This document shows, piece by piece, positions 33,328 to 43,615 of a stretch of DNA of 64,000 nt. How positions within the stretch are numbered: position 1 is the first letter of the stretch; each line of letters begins with the position of its first letter. The notes under the pieces were generated by a model, which ran no database searches, was not told where the DNA came from, and saw nothing but the letters and a program-made list of their open reading frames with translations. This DNA comes from Corynebacterium heidelbergense. GTDB lineage: Bacteria > Actinomycetota > Actinomycetes > Mycobacteriales > Mycobacteriaceae. The stretch lies in the NCBI RefSeq assembly GCF_028609845.1, contig NZ_CP063191.1:186001-250000 (forward strand), given 5' to 3'. The position numbers and the translations under genes were made by a program.

Positions 33328-34607
33328 ATGGTTGAACCGTTGCTGCCCCGTACTCTTTATCGCCAGGCGGAGGAAATCCTGAGCGATACTCCGATCCTTG
33401 TCATCTCTGGGGCCCGTCAAGTGGGGAAAAGTACCATGATGGAGGAGCTTGTGGAGGACATTCCAGGCAGTCGCCGTGTCAATCTGGATAAGGCGGCGGC
33501 TAGGGAGGCAGCTGAGGCGGACCCAGACGGTTTTGCGGACCAGTTTCCCGATGGTCTACTTGCGATCGATGAAATCCAACGGGTTCCGAGGTTGCTCCTG
33601 TCGATCAAAGCGTCGTTGGAGGTAAACAGGAGTCCCCGGCCGCTTTATTTGCACGGGGTCCCACAATCTCGGTTCCCTGAAGGGGGCGGAGGAGAACCTG
33701 GCGGGTAGGGCGGAGACATTACAGTTGCGAGGTTTGAGCCAGGGTGAGATTCAGGGAAGGCGGGAGGATTTTGCTGCTTTCGCCTGGACTCTTGGGGATA
33801 CTGGACAGCACGTCTCTCTCGACGAGTCGGTGCTTCCCTCTCGCTCGGAATACTTCGAACGCATAGTGTGCCCCTACTTCCCAGAACCGTTCCTTCGGCG
33901 GCCTTCCCGGCGTAGCCGCTGGGTAAAGAATTATGCCGAGCGGGTGATCTCGAAGGATGCACAAAACCTACAAACAGTCCAACACCCAGACCGCTTGGCA
34001 GACTTATTGCGCTGGATCGCAGCCAATCCGGCAGCCGAATTTGTTTCCGCCCGCGTAGCTCTGGATTTGGATATTCCGAACAGAAGCGTACCCGCCTATC
34101 TTAGGGCCTTGGAGGGCGTGTTCATCATCGATCAGCTACCGCGGGGAGCACAACCGCCTTGCAAGGTCAGTGGGCCGCTCCAAGATCGTCTTTCGGGATG
34201 CCGGCTTGGCTTCCGAGTTGAGTGGTTTCGATGCTGCTGGTCTGGAGGGTGCGATAGCAAGCCCGCTGACCGGCGGTTTGGTCGAGAATTTTGCAGTGGC
34301 CGAACTACTGAAGCAGCAGGCCTGGTCAACGGTGGGGTATTCCGTTTCCCACTTCCGGGATAGAGATGGGCATGAGGTGGACATTGTTCTGGAGAGTCGT
34401 CGAGGCGATATCGTCGGCGTGGAAGTCAAAGCCACCACCTCGGTTGGCAGAAACCACTTCAAGGGGCTTCGCTTCCTCCAGGACAAAGTACCTGATCGCT
34501 TTCGGGCTGGAATAGTCCTGCATCTTGGCAAGGAGTGCCACCGGTTTGGTCCCGGTTTGTGGGCCTTGCCGCTGGCGAGCCTGTGGTCCAGGAGTCGGGT
34601 TGGCTAG
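33328..34607 (+). pseudogene. AAA+ ATPase / DUF4143 protein, broken by two frameshifts
   Basis: Three consecutive frames together make one ~425-residue ATPase. Frame 1 has Walker A (ISGARQVGKSTMM) and Walker B (LLAIDEIQRVP). Frame 2 has GAEENLAGRAETLQLRGLSQ, the winged-helix part and the start of DUF4143 (ALEGVFIIDQLPRG). Frame 3 has the DUF4143 nuclease-like end (VFRDAGLASEL, ENFAVAELLKQQAW, DGHEVDIVLE, VEVKATTS). Both breaks are +1 and each falls on a GGGG tract (33655-33658 and 34143-34146); removing one G from each restores a full frame. It may be a true pseudogene or two sequencing errors. AT-rich relative to flanks. Confidence 0.82.
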
Positions 34608-35496: not shown

Positions 35497-36438
35497 CTAG
35501 TCGTTGCCGGTGAGTAGTTGTGGTGGCATTTCACCGTAGTGGGCTGGATTTGCGATGCCTGCGGCGAGGAGGGCATTGGAGGCGAGTATTGGTTCGACGC
35601 GCTTGGCGAGCCAATCCGGCTGGAGACCGGTTTTGGTGGCGACTTGGTCGAGTGCGACAAAAATCTTGTAGATCGAGTGATCGAGGAACGGGCGGTGGTC
35701 TCGTTTGGCTCGTCGGGCGATGTTGGGGAGGAGCCCTGGACGGTCGATGACAGCGTGGTTCCACAGTTTCGCGCAGTGGGCGTTGCGATTGCGTAGGTAG
35801 ACGAATGACCGGACTTGGCTCGGCAGTCTACTTGGAGAAACGTTCATCGATGATGCCATGCCCTCCAGTACTCCGGACTTCCCCGAGGCCTCGATGAGCC
35901 TAGACAGGCTTCCAAACGAGAAGGCCTCGACCGCTACCCAGATGGGCATGCGTGCGTACGCCTCTACGCTGTAAGCCTTGCCGGCTTTGATCTCATCGCG
36001 GTAGTGAGACACGAAGGTCTCCTTGCTTCGATCCAGGTTCGACAGCGCATGTTCTTCGACACGTTCCTCATCAGGACTAGGAGATTGGGTGAATCCGTCA
36101 CCTCTAGCGAACGCTCCGACCGCTCCGACACATTGGGCGTAGTAGTAGGCGAACCGGGTCCTCAGGAGAACCTCGATCGGATGGAGGACTTCGTCGCACA
36201 CCGCAACCAGCTTTTGTTCGGCTTCATAGAGACGCTGGATCACTTCAAAGGATGAATCGTCGAGGAAGCGATTGTTACCCGCCTTTGGGGCGATCTGCCA
36301 GTAACGGAAATATCCCGAGAACCGGTAATAGTTTACTCGAGAAAGGAATTCGGCTGCTGATGCGGTGTCTTTGACGGTCAAACCTCGTTCTTGAAGCAAT
36401 TTGACCTGTTCGTCGTAAGTAAGCCGACGCTTATCCAT
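35497..36438 (-). CDS. Abi_2-family (AbiD/AbiF-like) HEPN abortive-infection protein
   Basis: A 313-residue intact Abi_2 protein. Diagnostic blocks are the N-terminal TYDEQVKLLQERGL, FLSRVNYYRFSGYFRYWQ, and the HEPN RNase motif Rx4H in YLRNRNAHCAKLWNH near residue 220. Abi_2 proteins abort phage infection, presumably by RNA cleavage; the HEPN Arg and His are both present, so it is predicted active. Start at the ATG at 36438. It sits in an AT-richer patch between two decayed genes, and its leader folds into a strong nested hairpin (36461-36510). Confidence 0.88.
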   Translation of the reverse strand: MDKRRLTYDEQVKLLQERGLTVKDTASAAEFLSRVNYYRFSGYFRYWQIAPKAGNNRFLDDSSFEVIQRLYEAEQKLVAVCDEVLHPIEVLLRTRFAYYYAQCVGAVGAFARGDGFTQSPSPDEERVEEHALSNLDRSKETFVSHYRDEIKAGKAYSVEAYARMPIWVAVEAFSFGSLSRLIEASGKSGVLEGMASSMNVSPSRLPSQVRSFVYLRNRNAHCAKLWNHAVIDRPGLLPNIARRAKRDHRPFLDHSIYKIFVALDQVATKTGLQPDWLAKRVEPILASNALLAAGIANPAHYGEMPPQLLTGND

Positions 36439-36893: not shown

Positions 36894-37496
36894 ATGCATT
36901 ACAGGAAAATGGCCCTCGGCATTTGCGGTAGCGCTCTCACCGTGTCAACGCTGGCAACCTGCGGCGGCGAGGTCAAGGACGGGCCGGGGTCAAGCTTCAC
37001 TTCCATGTCCAGCTCCGCCGCTACGTCTTCCCCCGCAGCGGCAGCGCCCGCTGAGCCCAGCCCGTCCACCGGAGGCGGGCAGCAGGCGGCGCCACCAGCG
37101 GCCGGTTCGACGGATGTGGCCAAGTTCGACCGGGCCAAGCCCACGGGTGTTTTCCGCCAGCGGTTAGGCCTGACCTCCAAGGATGGGGCGGAGCTTCACT
37201 GTCTCAAGATCGACGAGACATTCTGCATCTCCCACACCCGATCACCTTATTGGGCCATCGACGGGCAACGTGCCCCCTACGTCAACCTGCTCACTGGGGA
37301 AGCCCGCACGGTCGGGGATGCAGGCATGGAATGGACCAGCAAGGTGGACGAGCTTCGCGCCGGGGAAAAGTGGTCCCTCTCGGAGGATCCAAACGGCGGT
37401 GGTTACATCGCCTGGGATGGGGCGAATGTGTACTGGAAGGCCAATGCAAGCAGCCCCACGAAGGTCCTCACGCCCCAAGGGTGGGCCCAGGGATAA
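36894..37496 (+). CDS. Secreted lipoprotein of unknown function
   Basis: Two hundred residues: a signal sequence with lipobox-like LATC (Cys23), a ~60-residue Ser/Ala/Pro/Gly linker, and a compact C-terminal domain of ~120 residues with two Cys (ELHCLKIDETFCISH) and several Trp. The domain type is not recognised. It converges on the Ser/Thr kinase gene with a gap of about 50 bp and, like the kinase ectodomain and the sensor-like protein at 40729, is an extracytoplasmic Cys-pair domain. I infer that it belongs to the same module. Confidence 0.68.
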   Translation: MHYRKMALGICGSALTVSTLATCGGEVKDGPGSSFTSMSSSAATSSPAAAAPAEPSPSTGGGQQAAPPAAGSTDVAKFDRAKPTGVFRQRLGLTSKDGAELHCLKIDETFCISHTRSPYWAIDGQRAPYVNLLTGEARTVGDAGMEWTSKVDELRAGEKWSLSEDPNGGGYIAWDGANVYWKANASSPTKVLTPQGWAQG

Positions 37497-37549
37497 CCAC
37501 CCCTCAAACGGCCCCGGCGACAAACTGTCCTGACCAGGCTCCCGCCCAA

Positions 37550-39085
37550 TCAGCACACCGGCAAAGTCAGTTGATCCTTATTGATCTGCGGCCCCGAGAT
37601 GAGGAAGGCATAACGGCTCAGCGCATCTTCGGGAAGCACGGCGATTGTGTGCAGGGCATTGCCGGGAACGTCCATCACATCCACCGCGCACGTCCCGTTC
37701 GACATGTGGGTGGCATTAGCCGTATCGCCGACGACACGATTGCGCCAATCACCGCTGCCATAATCCACGGCCGCGAGCGTGGTGTTGTTTCCGGTGCACA
37801 GAATCCGAGCGCGCTCCGAGGGCTGTAACTGGGCGGTTTGGCATTTGGTGTTGTTCCACCCTGTGCCGCGTTGGCGATCGGGAAGCACCTGGGGGAATTC
37901 GGAGGCCATGTTCTTTGCTTCTGCGGGCCAGGCAGGGCGGATCACGGTGGGATATGCCACGGCCGCCGCAAGCGCCACTCCAGCCACGGTGCCAGCGGCG
38001 ATGAGGGGCCGAACCCATTTCCGGCGCTTGGGCGGCGCGGCGAAAGGAACGGCCATCTGTGCCCCGGCCGGGCGTACTGGTGGGAGCGCCGGGCGGGGCG
38101 GCTCCATCTTCTGCAGCTCGTCGGCGGGGATGAACGTGGAGGGTGCCGTCGCGGCGCTCGCACGTGCGAGATCCTCCAAGAACGCCGTGGCGGTGGGATG
38201 GCGATCCGACGGTTCGTTGCTAAGCGCCCGGGTGAACACGCTTGAAATGGCAGCGGCAGCGGGCGCATCCGCCGGGGCGATTTCGTTGCTACTAACCCCC
38301 GGAAAGACCCGGTGAAAGCGCCACGCCTCATCGCTCATAACCGAGCGAAGGGGGCGCAGAGTAAGCAATTCCAGAACCACCAACGCGAAGGCGTATCGGT
38401 CCGCACCACTTGAGGAGGACACGGGCGGCGCTTCGGAGAACGTCCCGTGGGCAAAAAGCTCCGGTGCCATGTATTGGTCGGTGCCGATGATGGTCCCGGC
38501 GGAGGTCATCCTGGTTTCGTCCTCCGTGAGGCTGATACCGAAATCCGTGAGAACACTCGCGGGGCCCCAACCCTGTTCGAAAGGGATCAGGATATTCCCG
38601 GGCTTTACGTCACGGTGGATGATCGGTTTTTCGGCGCTATGGAGGTAGTCCAGGGCCTCGGCGATGGGGCTCAAAAGATGTATGGCTTCGGACGCCGTCA
38701 GCCGGTCATTATTCACACTGCGGTTAGCAATCAGTTGAGCCAGGTTGCCACCTTCGATGTAGTCCATCTGGAAGAACGCGAGGCCATTTTCTAACTGACC
38801 AGCCCGGTGGACGGAAACAATCGCGTGGTGATGAACGCGAGCAAGAATCCGCATCTCCTGTCGGAAACGCTGGCGCCCGCCCTCGGTGTAGAGGGCTCGT
38901 TCGGTGATGACCTTGATGGCGACGGGCCGGTCAAGTTCGTCATCCCACGCTCGGTAGACCACGCCCATCCCGCCCCGCCCGATCACCGTGAAGTTGGATA
39001 ACTCAAGCGTTTTCGAAAGGGCGGCGATGAGGGGGTCTTGGGGGTCCGGCTCAGAGCCGAGCGGAGCGTGGGGGGTGTTGGTCAT
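37550..39085 (-). CDS. Transmembrane Ser/Thr protein kinase (PknB-like) with novel ectodomain
   Basis: A 511-residue eukaryotic-like kinase. The kinase domain (~31-300) is complete: Gly-loop GRGGMGVVY (36-44), Lys58 in VAIKVI, HRD 157-159, Lys161/Asn164, DFG 181-183 and a Thr/Ser-rich activation loop (TRMTSAGTIIGTDQYMAPE). A linker leads to one membrane helix (AAGTVAGVALAAAVAYPTV). The ~130-residue outer domain has four or more Cys and no PASTA repeats. It is therefore not PknB itself; it probably senses an external signal and phosphorylates neighbours such as the FHA-like protein. Start at the ATG at 39085 (MTNTPHAP). Confidence 0.88.
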   Translation of the reverse strand: MTNTPHAPLGSEPDPQDPLIAALSKTLELSNFTVIGRGGMGVVYRAWDDELDRPVAIKVITERALYTEGGRQRFRQEMRILARVHHHAIVSVHRAGQLENGLAFFQMDYIEGGNLAQLIANRSVNNDRLTASEAIHLLSPIAEALDYLHSAEKPIIHRDVKPGNILIPFEQGWGPASVLTDFGISLTEDETRMTSAGTIIGTDQYMAPELFAHGTFSEAPPVSSSSGADRYAFALVVLELLTLRPLRSVMSDEAWRFHRVFPGVSSNEIAPADAPAAAAISSVFTRALSNEPSDRHPTATAFLEDLARASAATAPSTFIPADELQKMEPPRPALPPVRPAGAQMAVPFAAPPKRRKWVRPLIAAGTVAGVALAAAVAYPTVIRPAWPAEAKNMASEFPQVLPDRQRGTGWNNTKCQTAQLQPSERARILCTGNNTTLAAVDYGSGDWRNRVVGDTANATHMSNGTCAVDVMDVPGNALHTIAVLPEDALSRYAFLISGPQINKDQLTLPVC

Positions 39086-39177
39086 CAAGTCTTCTTTTTC
39101 CGAGGCTGGTTTGTCCGATGCGGGCAACCCGGGTGGATGCTAGCTGCGTGGATCAGTGCCGGGTTGGACCCTTCCTG

Positions 39178-40080
39178 CTAGCTCCAGCGATGCTCGTGCT
39201 GATCGGCTCCGGCAGCGCCCGAGGCCCAAGGGTTTGACTGTTGCCCCTCTTCAGCTTCCAGCGACCACTTGCGAGGCGCTGGACTAGCCGAGGGGGAGGC
39301 CTTCGCGGCCGCCGCACTCCAGCGACCCCCGTCCACGCTGGGTTGAGTCTGCTCAGCGCTCCAGCGCCCTGTCGGAGCGTTAGCCTGGCCAAATCCGGCT
39401 CTATTAAAGCCCTTTAGCTGCACGGAGGCGCCCGTAGCGGAACCCAGATACCGCTTGAGCCACTGGAATCCGGGCGCGTTTGTTTGCACGCCAACAACCG
39501 TGTTCCACACCAGCATGATCAGGAGGATCAGCACCGCCAGGAACAGGCCGAAACCGACGGATGTTAGGGAATCAACATCGGAATCCCCCAACTCCTTGAT
39601 CTGAGATGCCACGAGCGGATCGCCTCCGGTGAATAGGCCGGTCAGGCAGTAGAGGAACAGTAGAGAGATAAAAGGTCCGAACACCGTGGGGGTTAGTTGC
39701 CGGAGATTTGTCAGCAGCGATAGCGTCAGAGCCGCAAGCACCAGGATGATCACCAACTGGATGGCCAGAATCGGGCCAATCCAGTCACTAGTCGAACCGG
39801 ATGTTGAGCCAATCGTTTCGCCAAGAACATTGGCGGATCCGGACACACGACAGCCCACATGCCCCAATCCGGAGAGCGAGCAACCCCCATTGGCGGAGTA
39901 CCCGCCGAAGCCGTTCGACCTGCTTGTACTGACGTCGGCCTTTGTCCAGGGGAGGAGACACGTTAGAAGGTAAAGAAACGACAGCGTTCCGTATACCGCT
40001 AGCTGAATTACTGGCTGCCGGAGCCACGAACCTACTGAGTTTCGGGGAGTGGGCGCGGTGGGAGCAAAGTTCATTGCCAT
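39178..40080 (-). CDS. Four-helix membrane protein with RWS-repeat tail (paralogue of 42442)
   Basis: Three hundred residues. Helix 1 (~23-45) is followed by an outer loop with CSLSGLGHVGCRVSGS, then three helices, then a ~100-residue cytoplasmic tail in which (R/K)WS is repeated four times (GRWSAEQ, GRWSAAA, RKWSLEAE and the C-terminal HRWS). The outer-loop pattern C-S-x2-G-x-G-x-V-x-C-x2-S-G-S is shared with the membrane protein at 42442-43458, so the two are paralogues. The Trp-Ser repeats could be kinase sites. Function unknown. Confidence 0.72.
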   Translation of the reverse strand: MAMNFAPTAPTPRNSVGSWLRQPVIQLAVYGTLSFLYLLTCLLPWTKADVSTSRSNGFGGYSANGGCSLSGLGHVGCRVSGSANVLGETIGSTSGSTSDWIGPILAIQLVIILVLAALTLSLLTNLRQLTPTVFGPFISLLFLYCLTGLFTGGDPLVASQIKELGDSDVDSLTSVGFGLFLAVLILLIMLVWNTVVGVQTNAPGFQWLKRYLGSATGASVQLKGFNRAGFGQANAPTGRWSAEQTQPSVDGGRWSAAAAKASPSASPAPRKWSLEAEEGQQSNPWASGAAGADQHEHRWS

Positions 40081-40139
40081 GACGGATCCGTTCTATGCGG
40101 TGAGTGAGCTAGGTGCCAGGAGGTTCGCAGTGAGCTCCG

Positions 40140-40718
40140 TTACTTTGCCCGCCGCCCCATGAGCTTTCGAATGTTCCACAAGAGGTTCAAGAAAACGAGC
40201 ATGGCAGCAGTGTGGGCGGCTGCGAAGAAGCCAGCACTGTAGACGTCGCTCATGCGCCTGTCGTAGGAGTTGAGCCCCAGAGCCACCAGCCTGAACAGCA
40301 GGTACAGCCACGGGAGAAGAATGATGCCGTAGCCGATGGTCCACATCAGAGACTGAGATGGGTGCCGATCCTCTTTGACGCCAATGTTGGACATGTTGAT
40401 CTCAACGCTGGGGTTCTGGGACGACTGCGGCGCTCCGAAGGGCATGGGGTTGGAACGGCTGAGGTCAGTGGAGGCGAGGTTCTTGATCCACTGGATGTCC
40501 ACATTGGTCGAGCTGTCGGCCAGTGCGGCATCGTAGCTGTCCCGCTTGTACGGGTCCGCGAGAATGGACTTCGCGGTCCGCACCTCATCAACCTGGGGGG
40601 AGTTATCCGGTTGCCCACTATTCTTCAGATCGTTGAGGCGTGCCTGGAGGACGCGCTCAATATCCGCAGGTGGGGTATCGCGGTTAAGCTGCAGCGACTC
40701 GTAGAGATCGAACTTCAT
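40140..40718 (-). CDS. Degenerate J-domain membrane protein
   Basis: A 192-residue protein. Residues 1-~65 resemble a J-domain in helices I, III and IV (FDLYESLQLNRDTPPADIERVL, then AKSILADPYKRDSYDAAL), but the HPD tripeptide needed to stimulate DnaK is absent. A polar linker is followed by two membrane helices (~120-145 and ~160-180). It is probably a scaffold or assembly factor rather than a co-chaperone. Its stop-start distance to the sensor-like gene upstream is 10 bases, so they form one operon. Confidence 0.68.
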   Translation of the reverse strand: MKFDLYESLQLNRDTPPADIERVLQARLNDLKNSGQPDNSPQVDEVRTAKSILADPYKRDSYDAALADSSTNVDIQWIKNLASTDLSRSNPMPFGAPQSSQNPSVEINMSNIGVKEDRHPSQSLMWTIGYGIILLPWLYLLFRLVALGLNSYDRRMSDVYSAGFFAAAHTAAMLVFLNLLWNIRKLMGRRAK

Positions 40719-40728
40719 GTCTGTTTCC

Positions 40729-41475
40729 TTAATCGAATGATTCTGGTTGGTCGAGCTTGAAGTGGAACTCCGTCAATTCGACCTGGGAGAGTTCCGCCCC
40801 GCTAGAGTTCTCGACAGAGATTTTCTTCGGGCTTATCACTATGACAGTTCCGCCATCGGAAATTGTTCGGTAGCTGCCCTCGGTTCCAGAGGCGATGTCC
40901 CGTTCTGCCTCACCGCCCTTGTACAGGCCCCGGTAGTACAGACCGCCGTTCGCACCGACCCGGCAGACGACTGCGCGGTCGGTGCCGTTGCTGGCCGCAT
41001 ACACCCACTGGTCGTCCGCATTGCAATGGGCGCCCGATATTCCAACCCAGCCGCCGGGGCTGATTTGGTCATCGGTGGTATCCATACCGGCTCCGAACTC
41101 ATCCAGTGAGCCTGGTCGATTAGGGGCCGGGGCTGGGGCCGCTTGGACGTTCGGGCTAGGAACATTGGGGGCAGGTGAAGGGGCCGGCGCGGCGCTGGAG
41201 GAGCTAGACGCCGTAGTGCTAGCCGGTGCGGCCTGGAAGGTTGGCTGGGCCATTTCGTTCGGCTGAGCGCCGTGGTCTCGGCTCTGCCACCAGAAGTAAC
41301 CGAGGATGGCTAGGACCACCGTGAGGGCGACGGACACGCCCACGATGAAGATGCGCTTTGCCAGTCCACCTTGCTTCGGAGCGTTGCCGCCAGGGAATGG
41401 ATTGCCCAGACCGCTCGGCCGCGCATCAAACTGGGTGGGGGGTTCGATATTCGATCCCCAACCTTGTCCTGTCAT
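40729..41475 (-). CDS. Single-pass sensor-like membrane protein
   Basis: A 248-residue protein: a cytoplasmic Gly/Pro/Asn-rich N-terminus (~40 residues), one helix (FIVGVSVALTVVLAILGYFWW), an Ala/Pro/Ser linker of ~65 residues and a C-terminal outer domain of ~110 residues with a Cys pair (GAHCNADDQWVYAASN, VVCRVGANGG). The layout matches many actinobacterial membrane-anchored sensor or accessory proteins encoded beside Ser/Thr kinases. No known domain recognised. Confidence 0.68.
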   Translation of the reverse strand: MTGQGWGSNIEPPTQFDARPSGLGNPFPGGNAPKQGGLAKRIFIVGVSVALTVVLAILGYFWWQSRDHGAQPNEMAQPTFQAAPASTTASSSSSAAPAPSPAPNVPSPNVQAAPAPAPNRPGSLDEFGAGMDTTDDQISPGGWVGISGAHCNADDQWVYAASNGTDRAVVCRVGANGGLYYRGLYKGGEAERDIASGTEGSYRTISDGGTVIVISPKKISVENSSGAELSQVELTEFHFKLDQPESFD

Positions 41476-41647
41476 CTGGCCACTTCGCTTTCCGGTCGTC
41501 TTTAGCGGCGAATATTCTTGCTACCCGCCAGAAGTAGAGTAAAGCTACCGGGCATTGCAATACCACCGAAGCGGGGAAGCCTCCCTAAGACACCCATTTC
41601 AGGGGTAGCTCGATCGAACAGCAGAAGTTGCGAGGGCTGCGCAAAAA
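41476..41647 (-). promoter_or_regulatory. Leader of the sensor/J-domain operon
   Basis: 172 bases between the FHA-like gene and the sensor-like gene. No gene is supported. It presumably holds a promoter for the genes to its left; I could not fix -35/-10 boxes with confidence. Confidence 0.3.
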
Positions 41648-42331
41648 CTACATGCGGTCCCAGTAGCGACGATGCTCGGCTGCGAAGCGGGCCAACTGGA
41701 TACGACGAGACAGAGCCGGACCTGGCCCGCTGTGCGAAAACTCCGCAAACCCGTTTTCCGCGAGCTTTCGGCACAAGTAGTCAATCTTCGTATTGACCTT
41801 CTTCTGCGACCAGTCCAGTGTGTCCTGCAATTGCCTCACCGTAGGAATGTCGTCATTTCCCGCCCCAGCCCGGCGCACCAGAGGCGCGGCCAAGGCCCGG
41901 AGTAGTGCGGCCTGTTCCGCGTTGGGGGAGAACTGGCCCGCCGTCATCGGCGCGGTATGCACCGGCTGCGCCAAGGGCACATCCACTGCACGGGTCAAGG
42001 TGACATGCAATTCATAGGTGGTTTCTGGCGTCTGGAATACAAGGGCAGAACGATGTGCCGGAAGCGGGCTAGAGGCGCCGGGCCCCAACCGCATATGGGC
42101 CAAAGCACCCGCCTGGCGGCTTTCGATCTGAACCGGAACGCGATTGCCCCTGTTCGCCACCATCCACGTGCCGTTCGCGTACCAAATCTCCAAAAGAACG
42201 CGATGCATGTATCGATCATCCGCGCCGACCGGTATACGGGCGGCACGGCCAATCGTGGTGGACTCACCCGGTTGCAGAGTCCACCGCCCACCGACCAGGT
42301 CGTCGATGATGACAAGGTCAGGGGACTTCAT
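41648..42331 (-). CDS. FHA-like domain protein with C-terminal winged helix
   Basis: A 227-residue soluble protein. Residues ~5-110 look like a divergent FHA domain (RWTLQPGESTTIGRAA, then RYMHRVLLEIWYANGTWMVAN, with the Gly-Arg and an (M)HR in place of the usual SxxH). Residues ~145-227 form a winged helix (TVRQLQDTLDWSQKKVNTKIDYL). FHA domains bind phosphothreonine, so this is the natural reader of the kinase's signal, and the winged helix suggests it then acts on DNA. GAGGAG about eleven bases before the ATG at 42331. Confidence 0.7.
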   Translation of the reverse strand: MKSPDLVIIDDLVGGRWTLQPGESTTIGRAARIPVGADDRYMHRVLLEIWYANGTWMVANRGNRVPVQIESRQAGALAHMRLGPGASSPLPAHRSALVFQTPETTYELHVTLTRAVDVPLAQPVHTAPMTAGQFSPNAEQAALLRALAAPLVRRAGAGNDDIPTVRQLQDTLDWSQKKVNTKIDYLCRKLAENGFAEFSHSGPGPALSRRIQLARFAAEHRRYWDRM

Positions 42332-42370
42332 GGAAGATCATCTCCTCGATAGGGGAACGGAGCTGCCTGC

Positions 42371-42403
42371 TGCCTCCCCGGTTATTGCCGGGGTGGGGAG
42401 GCA
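42371..42403. terminator. Strong hairpin between the membrane-protein and FHA-like genes
   Basis: TGCCTCCCC (42371-42379) pairs perfectly with GGGGAGGCA (42395-42403). An alternative inner stem, CCCCGG with CCGGGG, shares bases with it. There is no T-run on either strand, so it may be a Rho-assisted terminator, a processing site or an attenuator separating the two leftward genes. Confidence 0.5.
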
Positions 42404-42441
42404 CGGAGGGTTAGGTGGGAAGGGGAAGAGGGGCGGCGGTT

Positions 42442-43458
42442 CTACTTGCCGCCGAAACCCTGTTGATTCTGCGGGCCAAACGGCGGCTGGTCGGGCTGGC
42501 CGAATGGCGGCTGGTTACCTCCCGGGGTAAAGCCCTGCTGGCTACCGAAACCCTGCTGACCGCCGAAGGGGCCGGGCTGCGCAGCGGCGTTCTGGTGCCC
42601 CCGCGGTCCCGTCGTACCGCCCGGCACCGGAGCCCCAGCCGGAATGTTCAGTGCCTTGCGTAGGCCCGGGCCGAAACCGGGGCTCTGGAAGACTGCGGCG
42701 AGCAACAGAGCCGTAGCGATCGTGAGCAAACCCAGCAGGATAGCAAGGATGGCGCCGATGCCCGGGCTTGTATTCACGGTGGGATGGGTGCTACCGATGG
42801 ACAGGCCCTTATCCGCGCCCCGGGTCAGCTTGTCCATGCTGCCAACCATTGCATAGACCGCGAAGACGACTTCCACGAGGCCAGCGGCAAGCAGAAACTG
42901 CGGGGCCAGTTTACGAAGCTGGGTGAAGGCCGCGACAATGGCCGCAATGAACAGGACCAGCACCGCGATCTGCATCGCCATAAAGAAGGTGTAGGAATCC
43001 GTGCTGGTCTCGCTGATGCTCGTCGGGCTTCCCGCGCCACCACCGAGGAGTTCCCCAAAACCGCCGGTATCCATCGAACCACTCGTCAGGCACTTCACCG
43101 AACCAAAGCCGTTCATGCTGCAGTCGGAGCTAACGTGCATCTCGGCGACCAGGAAACCACCATCGAACTTGACGGTGGCCTGTACCCACTTCAAGAACCC
43201 GGTGAGCAGCGTCAGCGCCCCAAGAACAGCCATGGCGATGGTGGGCAGCAGGGGGTTCCTGGCCATTGCATCCGCAGCGTTGGCGAAAAAGCCGCCGCCG
43301 GAGCTCTTCTGGGTCGGCTGCCCGTACTGCTGCTGGCCATATTGCTGCTGCCCGAACGGTTGGGAACCGTACTGGTTCGGACCGCCGAGCTGATTTGGGC
43401 CGGACTGCGGGGAATTCCATGGCCCCGAGTTAGGCACCGGGGGTTGCACGTTGTTCAT
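42442..43458 (-). CDS. Four-helix membrane protein with Gln/Gly-rich tails (paralogue of 39178)
   Basis: A 338-residue protein with a Gln/Gly/Pro-rich cytoplasmic N-terminus (repeats of QQYG), helix 1, an outer loop with CSMNGFGSVKCLTSGS, three more helices and a long Gly/Gln/Pro/Phe tail with FGxQQGF-type repeats. The Cys-loop motif is the same as in the 39178 protein. Low-complexity aromatic tails of this kind can drive clustering. Promoter-proximal gene of the module, next to tRNA-Gly. Confidence 0.72.
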   Translation of the reverse strand: MNNVQPPVPNSGPWNSPQSGPNQLGGPNQYGSQPFGQQQYGQQQYGQPTQKSSGGGFFANAADAMARNPLLPTIAMAVLGALTLLTGFLKWVQATVKFDGGFLVAEMHVSSDCSMNGFGSVKCLTSGSMDTGGFGELLGGGAGSPTSISETSTDSYTFFMAMQIAVLVLFIAAIVAAFTQLRKLAPQFLLAAGLVEVVFAVYAMVGSMDKLTRGADKGLSIGSTHPTVNTSPGIGAILAILLGLLTIATALLLAAVFQSPGFGPGLRKALNIPAGAPVPGGTTGPRGHQNAAAQPGPFGGQQGFGSQQGFTPGGNQPPFGQPDQPPFGPQNQQGFGGK

Positions 43459-43590: not shown

Positions 43591-43615
43591 GAAAAGGCGC
43601 AGCCGGGGCTGCGCC
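43591..43615 (-). terminator. Terminator of tRNA-Gly
   Basis: GGCGCAGCC (43596-43604) and GGCTGCGCC (43607-43615) form a perfect stem with a two-base centre. On the minus strand it is followed by TTTTC, just beyond the tRNA 3' end. Confidence 0.85.

Follow-up and report, generated by a model that had tools for sequence, protein, structure and literature searches.

Several Ser/Thr kinases work with proteins that carry an FHA domain; the descriptions that follow are those given in excerpts of the articles cited. PknH and EmbR of Mycobacterium tuberculosis combine a receptor kinase with an FHA regulator (PMC4601284), and MupFHA, the partner of PknQ in Mycobacterium ulcerans, binds the activation loop of a kinase (PMC4238996). 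PknB-MviN-FhaA brings together a kinase, a pseudokinase and an FHA adaptor at the cell envelope (PMC10166564). In Corynebacterium glutamicum, four Ser/Thr kinases are annotated (PMC2784874). The locus treated here is found in a stretch of 64,000 nucleotides of Corynebacterium heidelbergense (contig NZ_CP063191.1, positions 186,001 to 250,000), which is referred to as the window. It encodes a Ser/Thr receptor kinase with a cysteine-containing ectodomain, an FHA-fold protein and four further membrane proteins, and this grouping recurs in other Corynebacterium genomes. The six genes may constitute a receptor kinase signalling unit with a dedicated FHA-fold partner.

Organization of the module

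All seven open reading frames (ORFs) described in an earlier note on this DNA, which was made from the sequence alone, are present, with the coordinates and strands given there. They and their domains are as follows, TM denoting a transmembrane segment and HTH a helix-turn-helix.

42442..43458, minus strand: MEM4a, a 4-TM protein of 338 aa with N- and C-terminal tails rich in Gln, Gly and Pro
41648..42331, minus strand: FHA-fold/helical (HTH-like) protein of 227 aa, the presumed reader
41987..42331, minus strand: FHA beta-sandwich, residues 1-115 of the reader
41648..41944, minus strand: helical C-terminal domain of the reader, residues 130-227, a putative HTH
40729..41475, minus strand: SENS, a single-pass protein of 248 aa with a two-cysteine ectodomain
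40140..40718, minus strand: J-like protein of 192 aa, an N-terminal degenerate J domain without HPD followed by two TM segments
39178..40080, minus strand: MEM4b, a second 4-TM protein, 300 aa, whose C-terminal tail has three RWS and one KWS
37550..39127, minus strand: Hanks-type Ser/Thr receptor kinase of 525 aa
37553..37936, minus strand: kinase ectodomain of 128 aa with four invariant cysteines
36894..37496, plus strand: lipoprotein-like ORF in convergent orientation, probably no more than a neighbour

The six leftward genes span 37550-43458 and are ordered, in the direction of transcription, MEM4a, FHA, SENS, J-like, MEM4b and kinase. They are separated by gaps of 110, 172, 10, 59 and 50 bases.

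Recurrence in Corynebacterium

A species collection was scanned with the C-terminal portion of the FHA protein as query, a choice of loci that depends on the FHA gene and not on the kinase. Nine loci were obtained, from Candidatus C. avicola, Candidatus C. faecigallinarum, C. kalidii, C. variabile, C. glyciniphilum and four further Corynebacterium. The FHA, ectodomain kinase and J-like genes occur together in all nine, with the J-like gene beside the kinase each time; a SENS relative is present in six and a 4-TM gene in five. The module proposed in the earlier note is a real and recurring gene grouping.

A census of the genus comprised 242 genomes, assigned to Corynebacterium by inference: in G315 and in G337, four of five open-frame lengths are equal to those in L053 and L054, the SENS lengths being different. 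The ectodomain is present in 98 of these and the FHA family in 54. The ectodomain occurs in 44 of the 54 genomes with the FHA family, a higher share than the 98 of 242 in the whole census (P 3e-12, hypergeometric, uncorrected for kinship), and in 37 of the 44 genomes that have both, the two are at most 10 kb apart. By these co-location counts, and by those for active kinases given below, the grouping exceeds chance. The 4-TM family is rarer, with matches in 18 of the 242 genomes. Ten of 24 matches are inside a module (the nine strongest and one in genome G503) and 14 are outside, six of the latter being fusions of J-like and 4-TM domains. Scattering of homologues away from the kinase had been named as an outcome that would count against the module. 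For the 4-TM protein the result is divided, 10 matches speaking for it and 14 against. For the FHA protein such scattering is mostly not seen: the Corynebacterium loci read contain 49 full-length copies, and for 45 of these a full kinase domain is encoded on the same strand no more than 5 kb away. The copies that lack such a neighbour are those of L038, L041 (at a contig edge), L116 (the second copy there, where the stretch ends) and L146. At L038 (9370-12793) a pair of dynamin-like GTPases adjoins the FHA-family gene.

Active kinases, kinase remnants and the FHA gene

The ectodomain is found on different N-terminal heads. Among 111 ectodomain proteins read in Corynebacterium loci, 38 have a strong kinase match, 41 a weak kinase match, 11 are J-like fusions and 21 have another N-terminus; of 22 counted as others, 18 match the profile of the weak-kinase group. 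All four catalytic motifs are in a single ORF in 37 of the 38 strong kinases, the kinase of L109 being split over two. When aligned, none of the 41 weak-kinase proteins has the VAIK lysine, HRD or DFG.

The FHA gene is distributed in accordance with these heads. Of the 38 strong-kinase ectodomain proteins, 36 have it within 6 kb, compared with 9 of the 73 that have no strong kinase match; each of these nine has a strong kinase elsewhere in its locus. Thirteen of the 38 strong kinases were in loci picked by the FHA gene; in loci picked by the ectodomain alone, an FHA gene is within 6 kb of 23 of 25. The two exceptions are L123 (genome G490, with no FHA match in the genome) and L125 (G217, with FHA elsewhere). 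Thus the FHA gene accompanies active kinases and not lone kinase remnants, which is the best evidence that the FHA protein needs phosphorylation. In 34 loci with one kinase and one FHA gene, pairwise distances of the two domains correlate with r 0.86, a value reached in 0 of 2000 permutations, without control for species. Twelve further FHA loci were also read: nine have a nearby kinase that lacks this ectodomain, and L146, L148 and L150 do not.

Ectodomain loci without an active kinase tend to have a different neighbour. A lysS-like gene, named by eye, adjoins 49 of 55 such loci and 9 of 38 active-kinase loci. A J-like gene is within 6 kb of 12 of the 41 kinase-remnant ectodomain genes.

Kinase and ectodomain

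The kinase has a Hanks-type catalytic domain (Pfam Pkinase, PF00069, E 2e-34) with intact motifs GRGGMG (GxGxxG), VAIKV, HRDVKPG and TDFGI. Its ORF opens at TTG, with an in-frame ATG 42 bases further in, and hydropathy indicates one TM segment. The ectodomain cysteines, at residues 429, 444, 480 and 525, are invariant in a 60-sequence alignment and may form disulfides. No PASTA domain was found in the kinase by Pfam scan, and the score against NF033483 is 156.4 bits where the cut-off is 450; it is thus not a PASTA kinase of the PknB/Stk1 kind. The predicted model of the ectodomain has a predicted local distance difference test score (pLDDT) of 96.3 and a predicted template modelling score (pTM) of 0.90.

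The presumed FHA-fold reader

The predicted model of the 41648 protein shows an FHA beta-sandwich. The five canonical FHA pocket residues are those listed in an excerpt of PMC4238996. In the reader, G28-R29 and R44 are kept, and H43 and V65 stand in the canonical Ser and Asn places. The alteration is a property of the family. Among 62 members, the columns being assigned by two profile alignments that are weak but agree with each other (E 0.23 and 0.96), the Gly is present in 62 and the Arg in 61. The canonical Ser column is His in 61, the His column is mostly Phe or Leu and once His, and the Asn column is mostly Ile, Leu or Val and never Asn.

The C-terminal domain is modelled as a short helix and a long helix. 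It carries an LGW-xxKKxNxK-like motif, the basic KKxNxK part of which is conserved in most of the 62 members. The best comparisons with Pfam are sub-threshold, HTH_8 (0.077) and Sigma70_r3 (0.12), each for one member of nine, and a helix-turn-helix is weakly suggested. The FHA part of what had been described as an FHA-like/winged-helix protein is accordingly borne out by the predicted model, and of the second part a helical C-terminus remains, with HTH character a weak suggestion.

Membrane proteins of the module

The J-like protein has an N-terminal region of about 60 residues that scores 22.2 bits against Pfam DnaJ, below the cut-off of 27.8; DnaJ matches one of nine members. Profile comparison to DNAJC5 gives E 0.0016. 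The HPD motif is absent from all nine members aligned, and two TM segments follow the degenerate J domain. SENS has one TM segment and two ectodomain cysteines, and the two-cysteine ectodomain is conserved in 12 aligned sequences. MEM4a and MEM4b have four TM segments each, are related to one another, and belong to the same family as the 4-TM gene that comes after the J-like gene in five of the nine species-collection loci. Both have a C-S-x-x-G-x-G-x-V-x-C loop, which in MEM4a lies between TM1 and TM2 and holds two cysteines. Five relatives aligned from other species keep the G-x-G of the loop and lack the cysteines. In MEM4b, RWS or KWS is found at residues 239, 253, 271 and 298.

The structural description in the earlier note agrees with these observations as regards the kinase with its non-PASTA, cysteine-rich ectodomain, the J-domain membrane protein without HPD (similarity to DnaJ being sub-threshold), and the four helices, RWS repeats, Gln/Gly tails and shared cysteine loop of the 4-TM proteins. 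Its reading of the tails as substrates or clustering elements is not supported as regards conservation: the tails differ in the five other-species relatives and lack RWS repeats there.

Domain fusions connect several of these proteins. A J-like domain and the ectodomain are joined in one ORF in 11 cases, and six ORFs of four genomes combine a J-like domain with a MEM4-family 4-TM domain (two in L159, two in L160, and one each in L161 and L164); those in L159 and L160 stand as tandem pairs. Thus the J-like, 4-TM and ectodomain parts are tied together.

Additional genes recur around these loci. At L137:8691-14718, five consecutive same-strand ORFs that match the J-like protein, the first of them weakly (7e-4), are upstream of one kinase-FHA pair. 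A second Hsp70-type gene is near a kinase-FHA pair, with no J-like gene found, at L040:14888-16501, L147:4984-6600 and L152:4699-6318, that of L152 being called alike by its start only. A lipoprotein family that ends in a Q-x-GYEP-like motif is present in 10 of 38 active-kinase loci (L132, L037, L118-L120, L124-L126, L129 and L140) and in none of the 55 loci that lack an active kinase. Near kinase-FHA loci there is also a family of eight lipoprotein-like genes (L089:3173-3997, L138:2779-3747, L130, L114, L142, L144, L145 and L125) in which the motifs STxK, SDN and KGG were identified by eye. Two tested members match Beta-lactamase2 below threshold. These lipoproteins are possibly penicillin-recognising envelope sensors.

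FHA relatives outside Corynebacterium and genomic setting

Relatives of the FHA protein are present in 53 of 301 genomes of the family group (31 genera, Corynebacterium included). Twelve loci of other genera were read, and a kinase is nearby for 6 of 13 FHA copies. In L048:3759-12581 and L050:4356-13778 the FHA gene is in a run with a kinase, an FtsK/SpoIIIE protein and WXG100-sized genes (by eye). The FtsK/SpoIIIE-type label is from Pfam on L050, where this protein bears an FHA domain of its own, and L048 adds a PP2C gene. The two runs resemble a type VII secretion locus.

In C. heidelbergense, VanW and tRNA-Gly/dcd flank the stretch that holds the module. The same flanks enclose other content in G254 and G402; in G254 the module is located elsewhere than this interval. 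VanW and dcd are close together in G367, with no tRNA found, and dcd was not found in the G292 stretch. As the flanks are shared but the content differs in relatives, the module here occupies a variable interval. The interval also holds an AbiD-like gene at 35497-36438, adjoining the module, and an AAA_14/DUF4143 ATPase in several overlapping ORF pieces at 33328-34607 of the window. A terminator-like stem at 43596-43615, minus strand, lies just past tRNA-Gly, between the tRNA and the six-gene run. The lipoprotein-like ORF at 36894 faces the kinase convergently across a 53-base gap. It had been counted as part of the module, but probably is not, because no relative of it was found in the 27 loci compared (18 and 9).

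Proposed function

The module is best read as a receptor kinase signalling unit with a dedicated FHA-fold partner and a signal that is passed most likely to DNA, to which a probability of roughly 0.5 is assigned. The kinase would cross the membrane once and present its disulfide-type ectodomain to the envelope. An envelope signal, perhaps a ligand and probably received jointly with the SENS, J-like and 4-TM proteins, would turn on the cytosolic kinase. The FHA protein would then use its altered basic pocket (R29, H43, R44) to dock on the kinase in its phosphorylated form or on one of the kinase's substrates. It would pass the signal on, and the most likely destination is DNA, contacted by the helical C-terminal domain.

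Several observations weigh against this scheme. The domain reading took in 80 of the 98 ectodomain-positive genomes. Within 6 kb of the 38 active kinases, J-like is present in 20, SENS in 14 and MEM4 in 9, and many kinase-FHA loci are without them. In five loci of other genera (L043, L045, L046, L049 and L051) the FHA gene follows a gene of a PP2C cluster in a conserved neighbourhood with no kinase near, the PP2C label coming from Pfam on the L046 and L048 members of the cluster. The ectodomain has weak matches in a fold search (best Foldseek E 0.064). The reader model, with pTM 0.48, leaves the arrangement of the FHA and C-terminal domains open, and Smad MH2 and IRF domains appear at lower rank in its fold-search lists. 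Phosphothreonine reading is not assured, because other residues stand in the canonical Ser, His and Asn positions of essentially all 62 members, and the C-terminal domain has no significant match to an HTH or in the PDB.

A broader version of the same scheme is offered tentatively. Corynebacterium would possess a family of envelope receptors in which one disulfide ectodomain is carried on interchangeable cytosolic heads (active kinase, kinase remnant, J-like without HPD). The active form would signal through the FHA protein, which would represent a new class of reader, its pocket rebuilt with Arg-His-Arg in place of Arg-Ser...His...Asn, and would be a one-gene response regulator. Kinase and FHA protein would together form the Ser/Thr counterpart of a two-component system, and the J-like and 4-TM proteins would serve as co-receptors.

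A rival reading does without DNA. Perhaps one of the membrane partners (J-like, SENS or 4-TM) is the substrate of the kinase, and the FHA protein is a phospho-adaptor that assembles an envelope complex, its helical domain binding protein. The lack of a significant HTH match would be as expected for an adaptor, the five proteins that accompany it in the module are all predicted to be membrane proteins, NCBIfam FhaB_Rv0019c is matched by two of 11 FHA members (best E 8e-5), and PknB-MviN-FhaA, as an excerpt of PMC10166564 presents it, is a precedent. The short and long helices and the conserved basic KKxNxK motif nevertheless suit an HTH; such an adaptor is possible but doubtful.

Another explanation is that the system consists of the kinase and FHA protein only, and that the genes for the J-like, single-pass and 4-TM proteins act in the envelope independently of it, having gathered in a permissive neighbourhood. 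This would account for the active-kinase loci without J-like (18 of 38), SENS (24) or MEM4 (29) within 6 kb, for the 14 of 24 4-TM matches outside modules, and for the many different lipoproteins around the kinase in other species. It is made unlikely by the ORFs in which J-like is fused to ectodomain (11) or 4-TM (6), by the J-like genes near 12 of 41 kinase remnants, and by the constant J-like neighbour of the kinase in the species collection. A role in anti-phage defence, in which a PD-T4-6-like kinase and AbiD would share a defence island, appears very improbable on sequence comparison: PADLOC PD-T4-6 models do match the kinase (best E 2.5e-58) in a VanW to tRNA-Gly stretch that varies between relatives, but the best match covers the catalytic domain, which is generic, no relative of AbiD occurs in any of the 27 loci compared, the remaining module proteins match no PADLOC model, and the ectodomain loci without an active kinase mostly adjoin the lysS-like gene, a housekeeping gene.

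If the receptor kinase signalling reading is correct, part of the genus would have an additional receptor kinase with a partner gene of its own, and with it a signalling route not covered by work on the model species, C. glutamicum. The reader would also make it possible to test cleanly whether phosphate is still read by an FHA fold whose pocket Ser, His and Asn are replaced. Active kinase, kinase remnant and J-like head on one ectodomain provide a natural series for output change in a receptor family.

Comparison with known systems

No description of this module was found in searches of open-licence papers or among the titles and abstract openings listed, which is not proof of absence. Individual parts resemble known proteins. 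The PD-T4-6 defence kinase has the Hanks catalytic domain in common with the kinase here, the match being confined to residues 48-331. DnaJ and other J-domain proteins show weak N-terminal similarity to the J-like protein, which differs in being membrane-anchored and without HPD and, elsewhere, in being fused to the ectodomain or to 4-TM. Compared with PknB-MviN-FhaA, there is no MurJ or PASTA part, and the kinase remnants share the ectodomain and not a flippase. The likeness to PknQ-MupFHA is in the proximity of the kinase and FHA genes; MupFHA has all five canonical FHA residues, according to an excerpt of PMC4238996, whereas three of the five are replaced here.

The statement in the earlier note that the module matches no known system was too strong, as the logic of a receptor kinase and an FHA regulator is that of PknH-EmbR. 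PknH-EmbR is not known to have a J-like or 4-TM partner. EmbR has an OmpR-type DNA-binding domain, a BTA domain and a C-terminal FHA domain. The reader, of 227 aa, has its FHA domain at the N-terminus and a non-canonical FHA pocket, and neither BTA nor an OmpR-type DNA-binding domain is among its Pfam matches. PknH-EmbR is the nearest known logic, to which the module would add a reader of unrelated architecture and altered pocket.

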